Notes under the pieces: model-generated
Database searches by the model: none
What the model was told of the DNA's origin: nothing
Seen by the model: only the letters and a program-made list of their open reading frames with translations
Shown: piece by piece, positions 8,141 to 48,326 of the stretch
How positions within the stretch are numbered: position 1 is the stretch's first letter
Layout of the letters: each line of letters starts with the position of its first letter
Made by a program: the position numbers and the translations under genes
DNA from: Chitinophaga sancti
GTDB taxonomy: Bacteria > Bacteroidota > Bacteroidia > Chitinophagales > Chitinophagaceae
NCBI RefSeq assembly: GCF_034424315.1
Contig: NZ_CP139972.1
Coordinates: forward strand, 8,357,769 to 8,421,768
Direction: 5' to 3'
DNA: 64,000 bases

Positions 8141-11100
8141 CTAAAATATCGCATTCATCCCCAATGTAAACGACCTGAAAAATGGATACTGATACCCGGT
8201 ATTCGCCGCCTGCTCCGGATCATAATACCTGATCTTCATCCTGTTAACCTCCCACAGATCCTGCCCTGAAAAATACACCCTCAAACTACTAACCAGGGGC
8301 TGTCCATGCGTAAACCTAAACGTATACCCCAGCTGCAAATTCTTCAATCGCACATACGCCGCATTCATCACCCAAAACGAGGACGGTGCCAGGTTCTGAC
8401 TATACCCATCATACAACCCCGGAAATGCCGCATACTGATTTTCCGGTGTCCAGTAATCCGTATGGATCTGCCACGGTTGTTGCCAGCCTTCCACAAACGG
8501 CATACTATACTTTGCCGGTATCATCACCTTCCGCTCCCCAATTCCCTGGAAAAACACAGAAAAATCTACTCCCTTATAAGAAAAGCCCGCATCAAATCCA
8601 TAAGAATACCTCGGCTGTGAACTACCCAGGTACACCAGGTCCCCATGATCCGCTTTCGTATAAGTACCCCCGTTAATAATTCCATCGTTATTCTGATCCA
8701 CATATTTCAAATCACCCGCCGCCGTTGCCGTACTCTGAAATGCATGGGCATTTACCTCGTCCATACTCCTGAAATACCCCTCACTCTTATATCCTAAGAT
8801 CGCATTGTAAGGCAATCCATCCAATCCCTTATTATTTCCGGCCAACCATGCCGTGTTTCCATCAGTACTCTGTATCTTATTCTGCCCGTCAAACAAATTC
8901 GCATTCACCCAATAACTAAATGCTCCCCGGTTATCTCTCCATCCCAGGTTCAACTCCCATCCCCATGAACGCATACTCCCTATAAAGAAAGAAGGATAGG
9001 CATAATTGTACGGAGGTAGTGTCTGTTCCGCTATTTGTATCCCTGGGTTATGCTTTACAAAATAATCCGCTGTAAATGTCAGCCTGCCCTTCAGGAAAGC
9101 CATGTCCAGTCCTGCATTGGTTGTATTAATCGTTTCCCAGTTATTATTACCCGGCATATACCTGTCGTTATAGTCCTCATTCAGTAAAGGATATGTCTGC
9201 GGATACATGAGCTGATCGCGATAGTTATAATCATTCAACCCGCCCCGCCAGTTGAAATTTCCCAGCAAGCCCCAGGATGCTCTCAGCTTAAACTCATCAA
9301 AGAATCGGAATGTATGCCCGAACCATTTCTCATTATTCAGGCGCCAGCCACCGGAAAATGAAGGGAAGATATGCTGACGCGTTATAGCCCCCATCCCGGT
9401 ACTGTTGTAGAACAACCGTGCTGCTACTACATTCGCTTCCAGCAGGTAACGATCATTGAAGTTATAATTCAGGCGTGTAAACAGAGAACCCTGTGAGCCG
9501 GAAGCCTTGAACCAACGCATCTCAGCATATTCCGGGTTATTGAAGGCAACATTAGCGATCTCATTATTTGTCACATTATAAAGTGAAGAGATCTTCTGAC
9601 GCTGATAATGACTTTCGTAGGCATAGCCCCCAAGTATATGAATAGTATTGAGTTTACCGGCAGGAATATCATAATCAGCAAGCAATTGCAGGCTGTGTTG
9701 AACTTCCAGCAGATCGCCTTTTTTGAGTGAATTGGGATCATTGATGCTGTTCACGTAACCATTACCGTTATAGTATCGGATGATTTGCTTGCCAAGACCA
9801 TCATAATAATGTGTGATCTGCGGACTATAGACTGCTTTCAGCGTCAAGCCTTTCACCGGGTTCTCCGCTTTCAGGCTAAATGTGGCATCTGCAAATGACG
9901 TTTGTTCGTCACGTTTACCACCATTCTGCAAAAGTGAAATCGGGTTATACCCGGCTGTGTAATTGCTTGTATTCGGCACGTAGGTAGGTAAGTATCCCGG
10001 TGCCTGGTACAGATAATTCAATAAACCATTGTATCCATCTACCCGATACCCCGGAGACTCCGTATGGCTTTTTGCATACTGCAGGCTTGTCTCCAGGCTG
10101 ATCATATCGCTGAATCGGTTATTGATATTGAATTGTACGTTGTTCCTGTTGGTATTGTCCGGCCCTGTCTTAAACAGACCCTGACGGGCAAATGTGCCTA
10201 ATGAAAGCAGGTATTGATGCGCTGAATTTCCACCACGTGCACTGACATTGAAATTGGAAACAGAGCTGTTCTGCCGGGTCACATTTTCCAGGGGATTGTT
10301 ATCATAATAATACTTGTAATCTCCGTTCAGATCCCGCACTGCACCAATAGAGGGATCTTTCATGTAGTTAATTTCCTGGTCTGACCACACAGGGGCCATA
10401 CCGGCATTGATCGCTGCTGTATTCTGCAAAGCTGCAGCCTGCCAGGAGTGCATGCGTTTGGGTAAGTTGATGGGGTGTTCCAGGCCAAAGAGGCTGTTGT
10501 ACTCTACGTTCGTCTTACCTGCTTTGCCTCTTTTGGTAGTTACGAGTACCACGCCACTGGCTCCCTGCGGGCTATAAATACTTGCGGCGGCAGCATCTTT
10601 CAGCACGGAAACGGATTCAATATCGTTGGGATTGAGTAATGCTATAGAGCCGGGGGCGCCATCTACAAGTACAAGGGGATCGCTGTTATTACCGGAGGAG
10701 AGGCCACGGATCTGCAGGTTAAATCCTTCCTTACCTGGTTGGCCATTGAGGCGGGTTACCAGTAAACCGGGAGCCGTACCCTGTAAGGCGGCCATCACGT
10801 TCGTCACCGGGCGGCTTTTCAGCCGGCGGCCTTCAATTTTGGTAATGGCTCCGTTGATGTTGGCCCTTGTCTGGATACCATAACCAATGATGACGAGGTC
10901 ATTCAGAATTTTGGTATCACCTATCAGCAGTATGTCGAGGTTTCTTCTTTGTTTGAGCGGAATTTCCTGTCCTTCGTACCCGATCAGGGAAATCTGTAAT
11001 ACGGCATCTCCATTATTTACGGTTAATTTGAAGTGGCCGGTTTCGTTGGTACTGGCGCCATTGCGGGTACCTTTTTCCCGGATGGAAACCCCGGCCAGCG

Positions 11101-11551
11101 GCTTTTCGCCGTCGGAGATCACCCCTGATATGGTGAATATTTCCGGTTCGGGTTTGACGGGAATCTTGGGCACCCCACTTACGGGAGCGGATTGCAGGAT
11201 CGGGAATACGATGATCTGGCTGTTCCTGACCTCAAAAGTGTTCCTGGTACCGGAAAATAACTGTTGCAGCACATTCGTCAATGGCTGGTGATTAGCAACA
11301 ATAGAAACGCTCCTGGAATTTTCTATGACGGTGGAGGAAATGGCGAAGGTGAGGCCGGTCTGTTTTTCGATGAGGCGTAATACCTGTCGGAGGGGGGTGC
11401 GGTATACTTTCAGGGTGACATGAATGGTGTCTGCATCCTGGGCCTTCACTTGCGGGCATGCCAAAAGAAGCCCTATACATGCACAAAAAAGTGCTATGTA
11501 ACAGCGCTTATAAAAAGCGGCCTTCCGAAGTGCCATATGAGTTTCCTGCAT
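8141..11551 (-). CDS. SusC/RagA-type TonB-dependent outer membrane protein with STN domain
   Basis: 1136 residues. Order: signal peptide (to about residue 37, ...PQVKAQ); STN (secretin/TonB short N-terminal) domain at about 45-115; a carboxypeptidase-regulatory-like beta-sandwich (ISGVISDGEKPLAGVSIREKGT) at about 140-210; a TonB plug (NVMAALQGTAPGLLVTR, IRGLSSGNNSDPLVLVDGAPG) to about 345; and a C-terminal beta-barrel ending SFTLGMNAIF. SusC proteins import glycans or peptides across the outer membrane with a SusD lid. The STN domain and the FecR/sigma genes upstream indicate surface signalling through the receptor. No susD follows: the next gene is pyrB, in the opposite direction. The start may be the ATG at 11536 (MALRKAAF), which gives a tidier signal peptide. 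The substrate is unknown. Confidence 0.93.
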   Translation of the reverse strand: MQETHMALRKAAFYKRCYIALFCACIGLLLACPQVKAQDADTIHVTLKVYRTPLRQVLRLIEKQTGLTFAISSTVIENSRSVSIVANHQPLTNVLQQLFSGTRNTFEVRNSQIIVFPILQSAPVSGVPKIPVKPEPEIFTISGVISDGEKPLAGVSIREKGTRNGASTNETGHFKLTVNNGDAVLQISLIGYEGQEIPLKQRRNLDILLIGDTKILNDLVIIGYGIQTRANINGAITKIEGRRLKSRPVTNVMAALQGTAPGLLVTRLNGQPGKEGFNLQIRGLSSGNNSDPLVLVDGAPGSIALLNPNDIESVSVLKDAAAASIYSPQGASGVVLVTTKRGKAGKTNVEYNSLFGLEHPINLPKRMHSWQAAALQNTAAINAGMAPVWSDQEINYMKDPSIGAVRDLNGDYKYYYDNNPLENVTRQNSSVSNFNVSARGGNSAHQYLLSLGTFARQGLFKTGPDNTNRNNVQFNINNRFSDMISLETSLQYAKSHTESPGYRVDGYNGLLNYLYQAPGYLPTYVPNTSNYTAGYNPISLLQNGGKRDEQTSFADATFSLKAENPVKGLTLKAVYSPQITHYYDGLGKQIIRYYNGNGYVNSINDPNSLKKGDLLEVQHSLQLLADYDIPAGKLNTIHILGGYAYESHYQRQKISSLYNVTNNEIANVAFNNPEYAEMRWFKASGSQGSLFTRLNYNFNDRYLLEANVVAARLFYNSTGMGAITRQHIFPSFSGGWRLNNEKWFGHTFRFFDEFKLRASWGLLGNFNWRGGLNDYNYRDQLMYPQTYPLLNEDYNDRYMPGNNNWETINTTNAGLDMAFLKGRLTFTADYFVKHNPGIQIAEQTLPPYNYAYPSFFIGSMRSWGWELNLGWRDNRGAFSYWVNANLFDGQNKIQSTDGNTAWLAGNNKGLDGLPYNAILGYKSEGYFRSMDEVNAHAFQSTATAAGDLKYVDQNNDGIINGGTYTKADHGDLVYLGSSQPRYSYGFDAGFSYKGVDFSVFFQGIGERKVMIPAKYSMPFVEGWQQPWQIHTDYWTPENQYAAFPGLYDGYSQNLAPSSFWVMNAAYVRLKNLQLGYTFRFTHGQPLVSSLRVYFSGQDLWEVNRMKIRYYDPEQAANTGYQYPFFRSFTLGMNAIF

Positions 11552-11568: not shown

Positions 11569-12579
11569 TTAATAAATTTCTACGAGGCTATCTTTCTGAA
11601 TGGTATGTACCTGCAGTGTTTTTGACAGGATGTCCAGTACTTCAGAAAGGGATTCCTTATGGAAGGTTGCAATCAGCTTTTTATCGGCCACCGCATCACC
11701 TTTCAGTACGATATGTACTTTGTAATAATCTTCGAGTATATCAGCTACTTCAGACAATGGGGCATCGTCGAAGGTCAGCTGACCAGTTTTCCATGCGATG
11801 GGATTATTATTTCTATGATGACGGGTCGTGATGCTTTCTGCGGCAAGGAGCATATCTGCTTCCTGGCCGGGTGTGAGGATTACTGATTGGTGCTTGTTTT
11901 TGTAAATCGCTCTTACTTTACCGCTCTGTACGAAGACTTTTACTCCCTGTTTGGTTTCTTTTACATCGAAGGAGGTACCGAGTACTTCAATGTCCACATT
12001 TTTCAGGTGAACGGTGAATGGTTTTTCAGGCATATGCCTGACGTCTACAAATACTTCTCCCTGCTGTACATATACTTCGCGGGTATCGCCTTTGAAGTGG
12101 CGGGGATATTTGACAGAGGTATGTGCATTCAGATAGAGCCTGGTACCATCTGGTAACAGGAGACTATCTTTATTTTGTGCAGTTTGTTGGGTCGTATACA
12201 TTGGCTGACGAACCAGGAGGTAAGTTCCTGCCATCAGGAGCACAGAAGCGGCTGCTGCCCACCAGTAACGGTGAATAGGTTTCCGCGTCTGAATAATAGG
12301 AGTTGAGGTGGATGTGGCAGGAGAGAGGGGGCTGTCGCCGGAGAGGATCTCTTCCGTGGCGAACAGGGTTTCCAGTCTTTGCCATTGTTGCGTAGTATTG
12401 TAGGTCGCTGCTGATGGTATCAGGTCGTCACCTTGCCATAAGGCTTTGGTTTCGAGAAAGATATCCAAATTGGCAGCATCCTGTTGCAACCATTCATCCA
12501 GTGAACGTTTGTGCTCCTCATTTCCTGGTTCTTCCAGGTAGTGGATAACGACATCGATATCAGGTTGCTGTAGTTTCAT
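11569..12579 (-). CDS. FecR-family anti-sigma / signal transducer
   Basis: 336 residues: an N-terminal cytoplasmic sigma-binding region (1-90), one transmembrane helix at about 108-125 (YWWAAAASVLLMAGTYLLV), a periplasmic FecR domain (LLLPDGTRLYLNAHTSVKYP, QGEVFVDV, GTSFDVK) and a C-terminal DUF4974 secretin-like domain (TFDDAPLSEVADILEDYYKVHI). Such proteins hold the adjacent ECF sigma factor until the outer-membrane receptor signals through its STN domain. The order sigma, fecR, susC, with 102 and 17 bp gaps, fits this relay. No break or missing domain is seen. Confidence 0.94.
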   Translation of the reverse strand: MKLQQPDIDVVIHYLEEPGNEEHKRSLDEWLQQDAANLDIFLETKALWQGDDLIPSAATYNTTQQWQRLETLFATEEILSGDSPLSPATSTSTPIIQTRKPIHRYWWAAAASVLLMAGTYLLVRQPMYTTQQTAQNKDSLLLPDGTRLYLNAHTSVKYPRHFKGDTREVYVQQGEVFVDVRHMPEKPFTVHLKNVDIEVLGTSFDVKETKQGVKVFVQSGKVRAIYKNKHQSVILTPGQEADMLLAAESITTRHHRNNNPIAWKTGQLTFDDAPLSEVADILEDYYKVHIVLKGDAVADKKLIATFHKESLSEVLDILSKTLQVHTIQKDSLVEIY

Positions 12580-12681
12580 CTCTTACTATTAATACAATCA
12601 AAAATAAACTTACCATTAGTTCCCGGGGAAAATTTTTAACATTTTCCTGGACATCTATATATATTATATATGTATGCCCCT

Positions 12682-13224
12682 CTACTGCTGATTAAGCAGA
12701 CCCAACCTGATTTTTTTGAGTGCGGTGGTAAGGTGTGTGTATACTGTATTGATGGAAATATTTAACTGTGCCGAAATTTCTGCGGGCGACAATCCTTTTA
12801 TACGGCTCATCTCAAACACCCTCCTGCATTGTTCAGGCAGTTTTTCTAAAATGGAGAGATACTGGGCTTCCAGTTCTTTATGTTCCAGCAGGAGGTGCTC
12901 AATAGTGCCGGGTTCCTGTGTTTGTTGTTGTTCTTTGGCGTAAGCCTGCTGCCTTTGGGTCTTTTTAATACGGTTGAGGCAGGTGTTCACTGTGGCGCGG
13001 GCCAGGTAGTGCTGGATGGGTGCACGCTCGTCCAGGTTTTCGGCGGTTCGCCACAGGTTTAGGAATACATCCTGCACAATATCCTGCGCTTCTTCCTGAT
13101 CCTTCAGGTAGCGCAAGGCAATGCTGAACATGGATGGCGAAAACTGATTGAATATAATTTCAAATATTTGTTTATCCCTGTTCCGGACCCCGGTGACTAT
13201 ATCTGTATTGTTGAGCGGCAGCAT
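12682..13224 (-). CDS. ECF RNA polymerase sigma factor
   Basis: 180 residues with sigma region 2 (FNQFSPSMFSIALRYLKDQEEAQDIVQDVFLNLW) and region 4 (LPEQCRRVFEMSRIKGLSPAEISAQLNISINTVYTHLTTALKKI), separated by a Gln-rich linker. It lacks region 3, as ECF factors do. It should direct transcription of the fecR-susC unit and possibly itself, under control of the FecR protein encoded next. The ATG at 13224 lies just after a long gene-free stretch. Confidence 0.93.
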   Translation of the reverse strand: MLPLNNTDIVTGVRNRDKQIFEIIFNQFSPSMFSIALRYLKDQEEAQDIVQDVFLNLWRTAENLDERAPIQHYLARATVNTCLNRIKKTQRQQAYAKEQQQTQEPGTIEHLLLEHKELEAQYLSILEKLPEQCRRVFEMSRIKGLSPAEISAQLNISINTVYTHLTTALKKIRLGLLNQQ

Positions 13225-13569
13225 CCTGTAACTATCTTTTCATTCCATTTTTAAAAATCTAAAGTCGGCTTTCAAAAACAGAATATAGCAAAATTATGCT
13301 TATTCTATCAATTATCCGGCTAATTGGCTGGGTAGCAGCCGGGCCAAAAAAAGTAAATAAATATTTTATACTTGGGAAATAGCCACCATGGCTAGTCTTT
13401 GGCTTAAAGCGCCCTTTTTTTTAAAAAAAAGACAAGTTTTTTTAAAATGGACTAATGGTAAAGATAATAACGGTTGTATTATATATGTAGACAGTGAATA
13501 AGAAGCCGGCATTTAGCAGGCGCCTGCTAAAAATATTGAAAGAGTAACCATTCTTTATTTTAGGAAAAA
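13225..13569. other. gene-free stretch with a perfect palindrome
   Basis: No convincing gene. A/T-rich, with homopolymer tracts around 13418-13444. It contains a perfect 20-bp palindrome at 13512-13531 (half-site TTTAGCAGGC) and, at 13536-13563, a TTG-N17-TATTTTAG sequence that could serve as promoter for the RNA that follows (one mismatch in the -7 box). The leader of the sigma gene occupies the left end. Confidence 0.6.
13512..13531. repeat. perfect 20-bp palindrome
   Basis: TTTAGCAGGC followed directly by its reverse complement, with no spacer and no T run beyond it. This suits a protein-binding operator better than a terminator. It lies about 40-60 bp upstream of the candidate structured RNA. 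Confidence 0.6.
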
Positions 13570-13880
13570 CAGAGTGGTATTGACAAATTGGGGAGTTGAC
13601 CACTGCCTGAGGGCAAGCGGTCGTTTGGAAGGCATGGATTTGCCAGTGACCTAAGAGCCATCCTTATATATAATATATATAAAGGTGTATAGTCAAACCA
13701 CAGAAACCTGCAAAAGGCGGGTGCCTATACCTTAGATTATTACCAGAGGTCATTATATATGATGCAATAAGGGCAGTTTAAGCTCCCTTTGAGCACTCTG
13801 AAAACTTACAACTCCTAAGCATGATAGGAAAGTTGAGACCTGTAACAACCGGCCGGCTCTTTTGGGCCGGTTTATTTTTT
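13570..13880 (+). ncRNA. candidate structured non-coding RNA, class unknown
   Basis: About 300 nt with no ORF, dense complementarity and a textbook terminator at the end (AACCGGCC 13847-13854 with GGCCGGTT 13865-13872, then a T run). Local stems: 13598-13622; 13629-13637 with 13658-13665; 13682-13692 with 13725-13733, holding an inner CCTGC/GCGGG; 13769-13773 with 13785-13789; and 13809-13817 with 13825-13835. Two long-range perfect 7-bp pairings cross each other: 13570-13576 with 13794-13800, and 13592-13598 with 13809-13815. That is a pseudoknot, or two alternative folds. Several AAGG/CCTT segments also compete. It lacks the hallmark sequences of RNase P, tmRNA and SRP RNA. A 6S-like RNA or a new class is possible. 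The boundaries are inferred. Confidence 0.6.
13847..13880 (+). terminator. terminator ending the candidate RNA
   Basis: AACCGGCC, a 10-nt loop, GGCCGGTT, then TATTTTTTTAT. It lies 220 bp upstream of the next gene, so it ends the RNA and does not attenuate an adjacent coding region. Confidence 0.88.
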
Positions 13881-14099
13881 TATCTATTTTGCTAAAGGTA
13901 AAGATACCATACCCCCCGCTACGCTTGCCAATTTTAACGGGCGGGTATTTGGCCTCCTGATAACCTTCTATTTACAAACTGGATCCGTTCATTTTAGGGG
14001 TACGACTCTGAGATGAGCGGATTTTTCATTACGTTATTTTTTGCGCTACCCCGAACAAGGCAAAAATATTTAACCCCAAAAACGCTGTAAATTCGCAGC

Positions 14100-14429
14100 A
14101 TGCGTACCGTTATCTTTCTCATTATCTCCAACACATTCATGACCTTCGCATGGTATGGTCATCTTAAATTCACAAATGTTGCACTCTGGAAAGTCATCCT
14201 CATCAGCTGGGGGATTGCCTTCTTTGAGTATTGCTTTCAGGTGCCGGCCAACCGTCTGGGCGAGCAGGAAGGCTTCTCCGGCTTTCAGCTCAAAACTATC
14301 CAGGAAGTCATTACACTCTCTGTATTTGCCGTTTTTGCAATCTTTTACCTGAAAGAACCCATCAGGTGGAACTACCTGGTGTCCTTTGCCCTGATTCTGG
14401 GGGCGGTGTACTTTATGTTTAAAAAATAA
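14100..14429 (+). CDS. DMT-superfamily DUF486 small membrane protein
   Basis: 109 residues, four predicted transmembrane helices, with the DUF486 hallmarks TFAWYGHLKF and SWGIAFFEYCFQVPANRLG. DUF486 belongs to the drug/metabolite transporter superfamily and is half the size of two-repeat transporters, so it may work as a dimer like EmrE-type proteins. No substrate is known. The gene stands alone, 220 bp after an RNA terminator and just before an inverted-repeat element at 14461. Confidence 0.88.
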   Translation: MRTVIFLIISNTFMTFAWYGHLKFTNVALWKVILISWGIAFFEYCFQVPANRLGEQEGFSGFQLKTIQEVITLSVFAVFAIFYLKEPIRWNYLVSFALILGAVYFMFKK

Positions 14430-46945: not shown

Positions 46946-47072
46946 TTGATAAAATTACCGCAATTTGCCTGTGCGAACTAATGGTTAAGGGGCGATTAGT
47001 TGTATTTATTATAAATGCTGAACTCGTAAATATTAACTTAACCATACTTATAGCAAATAAAAAAAATTGATC

Positions 47073-48326
47073 ATGAAAAAACTGTTGGTATCATTTGTCT
47101 TTTGCAGTGCAGGATTAGCGGCTGTCGCTCAGCGAGCTAAAGTGAATAGTGCAGAAGAAGCCTTGAAAAGCAAAGACTACGCAAAGGCTACTGCTGATAT
47201 TCAGGCTGCCCTGGAAAATGATAAGACCAAGAATGATGCAAAGACTTATTATGTAAAAGGTAAGATCCTGGAAGCACAGGCCGCCGAGCATAAGAGCTCT
47301 GCTGAAGCACTGGAAGCATTCGAGGCATATAAGAAAGCACTGGAAATCAATCCTAAACTGCCAGATGCGCTGTTGGAACTGAATCAGCGCATGTTTAACC
47401 TGTACGCTACCGTTGGTAACGCAGGTTATGGCAATCTGAACGATCAGAAATGGGATTCTGCATATACACACTTCAAAGAAGCGTTCTCTATCGCAGAATT
47501 CTACAACAGTAAGAGCCTGGGTGGTTCTATCCCAACTGATACATCTATGACTTTCTATACTGGTTATGCAGCTAGCCAGGCGGGTCAGAAAGATGATGCG
47601 ATCACTTACCTGAGAAAAGCAGCTGATCTGCAGTTCAAAACTGAACCAGCTCTGTATGTAATCCTGGCACAGGCTTACGAAGAGAAAGGTCAGAACGACA
47701 ACTGGCTGAAAGCTATCGAAGAAGGTAAAACTGCTTTCCCTAAAGACAAGCGTTTTAACGATATGGAGATGATCTACTACTCTAAGACCGGCAAGACAAG
47801 TGAACTGCTGAGCATCCTGGAGAAGAAGATGGCAGAAAATCCAAACGACTTTAACACCGTACTGGATTACGGTATCCGTGTTGATAACGTAGCTAACCCA
47901 CGTGCAGAAGATGGTAAAGATGCTGCTAAACCAGCTAATTACGAAGAACTGATGGGTAAAGCTGAAAATGCTTATAAGAAAGCGATCGAACTGAAAGCTG
48001 ATGATGCAACTGCAAACTTCCAGCTGGGTGCACTGTACTTCAACCGTGCGGTTGGTTTCAACAAGGAACTGAACGATATGGATAGCAAGCAGCAGAATTC
48101 ACCTAAGGCGAAAGAATTGCAGACAAAAGTACAGGCGCTGATGGATCAGTCACTGCCTTATTTTGAGAAAGCTGACCTGAACTTCACTGCTAAAGCATCT
48201 TCACTGGATGCGAGCGACAAGCAGACCTACCAGAGCTGCCTGTATGCATTGCAGAAGATCTATGCGATCAAGAATGATAATGCTAAGGTAGAAGCTACTA
48301 AGAAGAAACTGGATTCACTGAACTAA
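47073..48326 (+). CDS. secreted TPR protein
   Basis: 417 residues from ATG 47073, with a signal peptide (MKKLLVSFVFCSAGLAAVAQ). The rest is a chain of TPR-like helix pairs (AEEALKSKDYAKATADIQAAL; EALEAFEAYKKALEINPKLPDALLELN; TGYAASQAGQKDDAITYLRKAADLQ; AENAYKKAIELKADDATANFQLGALYFNRA). It is probably a periplasmic scaffold. Codon use is strongly biased to preferred codons, which suggests high expression. It follows gyrA by 127 bp and ends at a strong hairpin. No function is recognised. Confidence 0.85.
   Translation: MKKLLVSFVFCSAGLAAVAQRAKVNSAEEALKSKDYAKATADIQAALENDKTKNDAKTYYVKGKILEAQAAEHKSSAEALEAFEAYKKALEINPKLPDALLELNQRMFNLYATVGNAGYGNLNDQKWDSAYTHFKEAFSIAEFYNSKSLGGSIPTDTSMTFYTGYAASQAGQKDDAITYLRKAADLQFKTEPALYVILAQAYEEKGQNDNWLKAIEEGKTAFPKDKRFNDMEMIYYSKTGKTSELLSILEKKMAENPNDFNTVLDYGIRVDNVANPRAEDGKDAAKPANYEELMGKAENAYKKAIELKADDATANFQLGALYFNRAVGFNKELNDMDSKQQNSPKAKELQTKVQALMDQSLPYFEKADLNFTAKASSLDASDKQTYQSCLYALQKIYAIKNDNAKVEATKKKLDSLN

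Follow-up and report, generated by a model that had tools for sequence, protein, structure and literature searches.

The window, by which we mean the whole 64-kb stretch of DNA analysed here from a soil bacterium of the genus Chitinophaga, harbours at 13449-13880 a probable transcription unit that is syntenic in the genus and lies beside an ECF sigma/FecR/SusC operon (Table 1). The unit opens with a promoter-like motif and a leader hairpin. Some 230 nt follow in which no reading frame is intact, then a 47-nt element that contains a hairpin, and last an intrinsic terminator. Because the conserved promoter-like motif is situated at 13449-13481, transcription is likely to begin around 13488, which puts the 5' end some 80 nt before position 13570, where a preliminary description of this DNA had placed the beginning. 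The same description recognized the terminator, with its stem at 13851-13872, and correctly saw the unit end about 220 bp before the next gene, a DUF486 gene starting at 14100. ARAGORN found no tRNA or tmRNA genes in the window, and the search for Rfam families which that description had advised gave no match at the gathering cut-off in the 64 kb. Sigma-70-like promoter matches numbered 10 as against 2.9 in shuffles and were set aside, such matches being no evidence and the motif shared with fecR lying further upstream.

A first DNA search covered 79 genomes (the window's own, 47 of the same genus and 31 of the same order), 19 of which matched: the window's own, three relatives over the full length, seven more in the 3' end at 96-100% identity, and eight with short matches that were taken for chance or terminator similarity. 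An orthologue of fecR was present in 52 of 79 genomes of the genus (E <=1e-60), and all 52 loci were fetched and are the basis of the counts over 52 given below.

Table 1. Positions of the genes, motifs and sequence elements in the window.
Feature	Position	Strand	Basis or remark
SusC/RagA TonB-dependent receptor gene	8141..11551	-	TIGR04056
FecR-type anti-sigma gene	11569..12579	-	PF04773, E 3e-19
Second copy of promoter-like motif, before fecR	12591..12620	-	perfect match
ECF sigma factor gene	12682..13224	-	TIGR02985 Sig70_bacteroi1
Predicted target, sigma start region GTTACAGG-ATG-CTGCCG-CTCAAC	13210..13232	-	complementarity
Promoter-like motif GGACTAATGGTAA (13449-13461) N12 TTGTATTA (13474-13481)	13449..13481	+	52/52 loci; putative ECF-sigma promoter
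Leader hairpin TTTAGCAG-GCGC-CTGCTAAA	13512..13531	+	predicted fold, conservation
Relic of the small secreted protein's coding sequence, frameshifted	13704..13764	+	local alignment, profile
Conserved 3' element, 47 nt	13804..13850	+	near-invariant in 21 genomes
Hairpin CAACTCCTA-AGCATGA-TAGGA-AA-GTTG inside 3' element	13809..13835	+	predicted
Segments complementary to sigma start, GTTGAG (13832-13837) and CCTGTAAC (13839-13846)	13832..13846	+	8 + 6 Watson-Crick pairs
Intrinsic terminator, stem and T-run	13851..13880	+	0/30 columns vary among five genomes
Possible third motif site	46977..47006	+	one mismatch; precedes TPR-protein gene starting 47073

The promoter-like motif GACTAATGGTAA, with at most two substitutions, precedes the divergent unit in all 52 loci and fecR in 42 of them, and perfect matches to the full motif occur in the window's genome (G000) at two places only, before the RNA unit and before fecR. 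Autoregulation by the ECF sigma factor would be the natural reading of this shared motif, and it is from the motif that we infer a dependence of the unit on that sigma factor. An ECF promoter class reported from Flavobacterium is, as far as described in that source, marked by a CGT box (PMC9723704), which the motif in the window lacks. Since the motif at the two-mismatch level is no commoner in G000 than a reversed control (7 versus 9), the case for a third site in the window is one of recurrence in relatives, motif-like sites, of which one has two mismatches, being found 32-42 kb from the locus in 6 of 13 further genomes searched. The gene behind this site (47073-48326) encodes a secreted TPR protein and is located next to gyrA; it is a possible third member of a small ECF regulon.

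The coding relic and the retained ends of the unit

In 45 of the 52 genomes the middle of the unit encodes a small secreted protein in an unbroken frame; these comprise 14 near genomes, in which the protein has 104-105 aa, and 31 others, in which it has at least 105 aa. The protein has a weak match in Pfam to CarboxypepD_reg (E 4.4e-4, below cut-off), and five pairs of intact genes gave dN values of 0.06-0.17 at dS values of 0.66-1.17. The gene is broken in seven genomes, namely the window's five-genome clade (G000, G031, G046, G100 and G014), G035 and G013. These broken copies occupy two clades in a tree of the sigma and FecR proteins, with the intact G106 between them; G106 is sister to the second broken clade (support 0.957 and 1.000), and the node uniting these with the window's clade is supported at 0.741. 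The topology indicates that the coding frame has been lost independently in two places of this tree.

A remnant of the gene is still recognizable in the window. Local alignment of the middle to the intact genes of G106 and G041 scored 42 in both cases, where the best of 300 shuffles reached 28 and 27, respectively, and the middles of four of the five clade members scored 41-52 against these same genes (300-shuffle maxima 25-31) and 27-36 against that of G092 (24-31). A profile of 13 intact transcripts, built without the promoter and the 3' element, had its best match in the whole window at 13706-13757 (E 0.0096; next 0.48), and no significant similarity to intact transcripts was detected by profile in the 5' half of the middle (E 5.5). 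The part of the middle that derives from coding sequence would appear to be this relic only. A paralogue of the lost protein is found at G000:C1:5996635, with 64% identity over residues 9-104.

Within the five-genome clade, the parts of the unit differ strongly in variability. Not one of 77 gap-free columns varies in the element and terminator, nor one of 48 in the leader (13488-13535), and the variable gap-free columns amount to 4/39 in the promoter stretch, 45/223 in the middle, 48/222 in the upstream spacer and 11/146 in the downstream spacer. Measured against the latter, itself conserved, the invariance of element and terminator has a P of 0.008 and that of the leader a P of 0.04. Relatively fewer columns vary in the relic (4/61) than in the upstream spacer (P 0.004), but not fewer than in the downstream spacer (P 0.53), for which reason selection on the relic is not established; the column comparison among the five genomes likewise revealed no selection on the middle as a whole. 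What is conserved of the unit is its promoter-like motif and leader on one side and its 3' end on the other. The spacer past the terminator (13881-14030) is itself unusually conserved in the clade, and harbours ATCCGTTCAT and ATGAGCGGAT (13983-13992/14013-14022) as an inverted repeat, with TTTTAGGGGTA between the arms and T's after the second; the sequence AGGGGTA recurs downstream of several paralogue loci.

Conservation of the 3' end reaches beyond the clade. Identical copies of the 47-nt element are carried by 17 of 21 genomes, three differing at position 46 and one at position 2, although the window disagrees with the five genomes compared from other clades at 49-57% of the fourfold sites of fecR; in four within-clade comparisons the figure is 23-24%. 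In the leader hairpin of the 21 near genomes the outer arms are lineage-specific yet still pair. In 14 of its 21 bearers the element lies downstream of an unbroken frame and is closed by the same terminator, whereas in the window the frame is lost. Both clades that independently lost the gene kept the element. A diverged copy in G008 retains the loop GCATGA and a hairpin with other stem letters. Sharing the 3' end and terminator of an mRNA and being more conserved than its surroundings, the element has two of the marks by which 3' UTR-derived sRNAs are recognized, and is a candidate for one.

A covariance model of the element matched 53 of 79 genomes of the genus at E <=0.1, with 22 strong matches (E <=1e-15), one per genome, of which seven were in the training set, the diverged G008 copy included; the other matches, at 32 bits or less, were taken for terminator noise. 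Across 298 genomes of the order the model matched 11 at E <=0.01, and all matches outside the genus scored at most 32.3 bits. The exact 26-nt core of the element was found in a genome collection in 15 stretches, of which 13 are titled Chitinophaga, one [Flexibacter] and one, a metagenome bin, Flavihumibacter. The title of this bin (L136) is probably wrong.

That the locus is a decayed gene with a strictly conserved 3' end can be stated with high confidence, and the best reading of the comparisons is that selection has preserved its promoter, leader hairpin, 3' element and terminator.

Complementarity to the start region of the sigma gene

The element reads GTTGAG-A-CCTGTAAC, where CCTGTAAC is complementary to GTTACAGG just before the ATG of the sigma gene and GTTGAG to CTCAAC just after it, the helices of 8 and 6 pairs thereby embracing the start codon. 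Complementarity to the 5' region of the sigma mRNA is a property to be expected of a feedback RNA, and makes the element a candidate for this role. All 21 genomes that carry the element have the two-part site at the sigma start, and none of the 31 others has it there. The site occurs at one place in the window's genome of 8.42 Mb and at the sigma start in all ten element-bearing genomes searched genome-wide, the nine others of which had 0-3 further two-part matches each; seven element-less genomes had none at sigma and 0-1 elsewhere. Ranked by two-helix score, the sigma start comes first of 106 mechanically called ORF starts in the window (14 bp, the next having 11), and a score of 14 is reached by 15 of 12776 slices of 50 nt, among them perhaps slices that overlap the site. 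Shuffling reached 8 + 6 pairs in 22 of 20000 cases for the element and in 12 of 20000 for the target. In an unaligned comparison, positions -9 to -1 of the sigma leader are invariant in the 21 genomes versus 4 of the next 36 positions. The start regions of fecR, susC, the TPR gene and the DUF486 gene can form 5-6 bp each with the element.

Net pairing energies were -8.5 to -15.1 kcal/mol in nine element-bearing genomes, versus a median of -4.9 and a best value of -7.7 kcal/mol at 31 sigma starts of other genomes. As an energy-based target the sigma start has unremarkable ranks (5/69 and 7/106; locus percentile 0.03-0.21 over 21 genomes). In the predicted fold of -60..+90 hardly any of the target segment is free (probability of being unpaired 0.001), the seed of the RNA is unpaired with a probability of 0.28 in the whole RNA and 0.68 in the element alone, and the second helix requires part of the RNA's own hairpin to be opened. 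Compensatory changes are absent because both partners are invariant within the 21 genomes, the joint occurrence of element and site may represent a single event on the tree, and invariant synonymous codons are also found elsewhere in the sigma gene (codons 11-14 of the aligned stretch).

In most of the 31 other genomes (L073-L103) the locus has a conserved 3' UTR of a different type, CAACCAACAAC or CATCCAACAATT, then AAATGGAAACCCATTTTGGTTTGAT and a terminator. Conservation of the 3' end at this locus is hence wider than the window's clade, with clade-specific sequence. The longest helix with the sigma leader in these genomes is 8 bp in eight, 7 bp in two, 6 bp in three and 5 bp in 18, and shuffles reach 6 bp in 28% and 7 bp in 7.6% of cases. 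No feedback is claimed for the 31, since most of the 8-bp cases belong to one related sub-clade and the margin over shuffles across all 31 is too narrow.

The paralogue of the lost protein has a 3' UTR of its own at locus L105 (G000:C1:5994000-5999000) and 19 others (L106-L124), where GTTGGTTTTCATAGGGGTTAATC stands before the terminator and is exact in 18 of the 20 loci fetched. Its reverse complement contains a start codon. A 15-nt perfect match to this 3' UTR, CCTATGAAAACCAAC, recurs in seven of eight genomes searched and spans, in all four fetched of the seven, the start of a conserved 83-aa protein (L168, G000:C1:5286500-5292500); the 3' UTRs of G004 and G043 differ by one base within the match. 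Compared with the paralogue's 3' UTR, 0.21 of shuffles did as well as the window's element and 0.04 as well as the 3' UTR type of the other genomes. The paralogue locus is a possible second dual-function mRNA, and because it has its own conserved 3' UTR with a 15-nt match, Chitinophaga may hold a small family of such transcripts.

Proposed function and origin of the retained RNA

Our best reading, to which we give moderate credence on the sequence data, is that the unit produces a sigma-induced RNA which feeds back on translation of the sigma factor and was retained after its coding part had decayed. By this reading the gene transcribed as 13488-13880 would be one that the neighbouring ECF sigma factor controls, and the coding part of this gene decayed in this Chitinophaga clade with promoter, leader hairpin, 3' element and terminator retained. 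Once released from FecR, the sigma factor would transcribe the RNA, which would act in trans either whole or, after processing, as a 3' fragment some 80 nt long. CCUGUAAC and GUUGAG would then pair with GUUACAGG and CUCAAC flanking the sigma start codon and hinder initiation of sigma translation, closing a negative feedback loop. Repression rather than activation is assumed because the position of the pairing covers the start codon, and the 3' end is probably kept unchanged because, as predicted from its sequence, it can pair with the sigma message and shut it down. The computations show that the locus is syntenic, that its frame has decayed, that its 3' end hardly varies, that it has a motif in common with fecR and that the complementarity goes with the presence of the element; transcription by this sigma factor, processing, pairing in the cell and a repressive effect are inferred. 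The further proposition that a protein-coding gene became a non-coding regulatory RNA gene twice independently, its 3' end still closing the feedback on its own ECF sigma factor, is advanced tentatively, as somewhat doubtful in this full form.

A less likely reading, though one to be taken seriously, is that the retained 3' end is a functional RNA, either a trans-acting sRNA or a stability or processing element, whose partners are other mRNAs or a protein and not the sigma mRNA. It would account for the conservation of the whole element, which covers the hairpin loop and the 5' strand and so extends beyond the sigma-complementary segments, and it accords with the unremarkable energy ranks of the sigma start and with the conservation of 3' ends at this locus also where their sequence does not clearly match sigma. 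However, the two-sided match at the sigma start is rare and tracks the presence of the element in 52 genomes. Antisense scans for other targets brought up nothing recurrent at the level of sites: the 5' part of the element had, at up to three mismatches, no antisense site in 6 of 6 genomes except the element itself, and the 3' part had scattered sites with 2-3 mismatches (nine genomes).

It is improbable that the unit represents a new class of independent, structured non-coding RNA, some 300 nt long and with functional long-range pairing, as the preliminary description had proposed. Both 7-bp helices of that proposal do exist, helix 1 at 13570-13576/13794-13800 (CAGAGTG/CACTCTG) and helix 2 at 13592-13598/13809-13815 (GGAGTTG/CAACTCC), and CAACTCC does have two possible partners. 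The RNA of the window folds moderately better than its shuffles (z -2.62; 1/100 folds as well), the arms of helix 1 are invariant with 7/7 pairs in all five non-coding-form genomes, and RNAalifold on these five shows some local hairpins persisting with one-sided changes. Helix 2, on the other hand, has 7/7 pairs in the window alone and 5, 4, 4 and 4 of 7 in the other four genomes, so that it is broken in all of these close relatives; helix 1 provides no covariation because it never varies, and RNAalifold recorded two-sided change in a single pair out of 109, while its covariation term (+1.44) was unfavourable. Three perfect long-range stems of at least 7 bp are present in the region, where dinucleotide shuffles average 1.23 and 122 of 1000 reach three, and one or more crossing pairs arise in 227 of 1000 such shuffles. 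With helix 2 broken in relatives and crossings within chance, the pseudoknot was rejected. Nor did the comparisons support a conserved structured core of about 300 nt, the middle varying like the upstream spacer and being partly a coding relic. The suggested likeness to 6S RNA fell away, as no 6S family is among the four Rfam matches at E <=10 in 13300-14150; the best weak match, Hrs13, at 18.7 bits versus a cut-off of 52, is carried by the terminator. What survives of the earlier proposal is an unclassified RNA unit with its own terminator, without an Rfam family and conserved in relatives, together with an echo of its guess of partner switching in the GTTG of the 3' hairpin, predicted to pair either within the hairpin or with the sigma mRNA.

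We consider it very unlikely that the locus is a plain pseudogene, promoter and 3' end of which have simply not decayed so far. A paralogue of the lost protein exists elsewhere, and since the relic and the downstream spacer are also rather conserved, slow change alone could explain part of the pattern; against this, the columns of the element with its terminator and of the leader are entirely invariant compared with about a fifth variable in the middle, and the element was kept in both independent loss clades. It is barely credible that translation of the unit in this clade still yields a short, diverged protein. Some relatives do have chance-length frames, such as those of 71 and 75 aa in G031 and of 82 aa with a TTG start in G035, but the window's unit lacks any + strand ORF of at least 50 aa, the relic is frameshifted and, among the frames listed, none is common to the five non-coding-form genomes. 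The absence of an intact frame holds for the window's clade, and most relatives carry the intact frame.

Systems of ECF sigma, FecR and SusC are common in Bacteroidota. If sigma-directed feedback by a retained 3' end is the true function, it would add an RNA layer to such systems in this phylum, and the locus would be a bacterial case of an mRNA turning into a regulatory RNA with the intermediates, an intact gene, a truncated gene and a relic, in living species.

Comparison with known systems

A search of open-licence literature brought up related systems and, among the papers listed, nothing on this locus. The closest precedent, and the one that works most like the proposed loop, appears to be UdsC with RpoHII of Rhodobacter. 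In Rhodobacter sphaeroides UdsC is described, in the part of the source relied on here, as an RpoHII-dependent RNA from the 3' UTR of an mRNA for a small hypothetical protein, which binds the 5' UTR of the rpoHII mRNA and for which the authors suggest a negative feedback loop (PMC9779115). If the reading proposed here holds, both cases would combine an RNA from a 3' UTR, a promoter for an alternative sigma factor and the 5' region of that sigma factor's mRNA as target. The Chitinophaga unit differs in belonging to another phylum and in its ECF/FecI-FecR type of sigma system, that of UdsC being of the RpoH type, and whereas the parent gene of UdsC is, by the account in that source, present, the coding part seen in the window has been lost in two clades.

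MicL of the Escherichia coli sigma-E response is, according to the source's passage on it, an RNA of about 300 nt over the 3' end of cutC that is processed to 80 nt (PMC9438474). It resembles the present unit as proposed here in that an ECF-type sigma factor drives the RNA, and differs in that its target, as given there, is lpp and not a sigma mRNA and its promoter lies inside the gene and not at the gene's own start. OppZ and CarZ of Vibrio cholerae are described as 3' UTR RNAs inhibiting translation in a feedback loop (PMC7398697); according to that description they pair with their own parental operon, whereas the predicted partner of the RNA in the window is the mRNA of its regulator. In the same phylum, 21 UTR-derived sRNA candidates are listed for Bacteroides thetaiotaomicron, which to the authors point to dual-function transcripts outside Proteobacteria (PMC7366714), none of these candidates being tied, in the passages concerned, to sigma feedback or to loss of a coding sequence. 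By these comparisons the kind of regulator proposed here is already known, and what would be new is the ECF/FecR type of the sigma factor, the way in which the predicted helices enclose its start codon, and the retention of the RNA's end after the coding part was lost.
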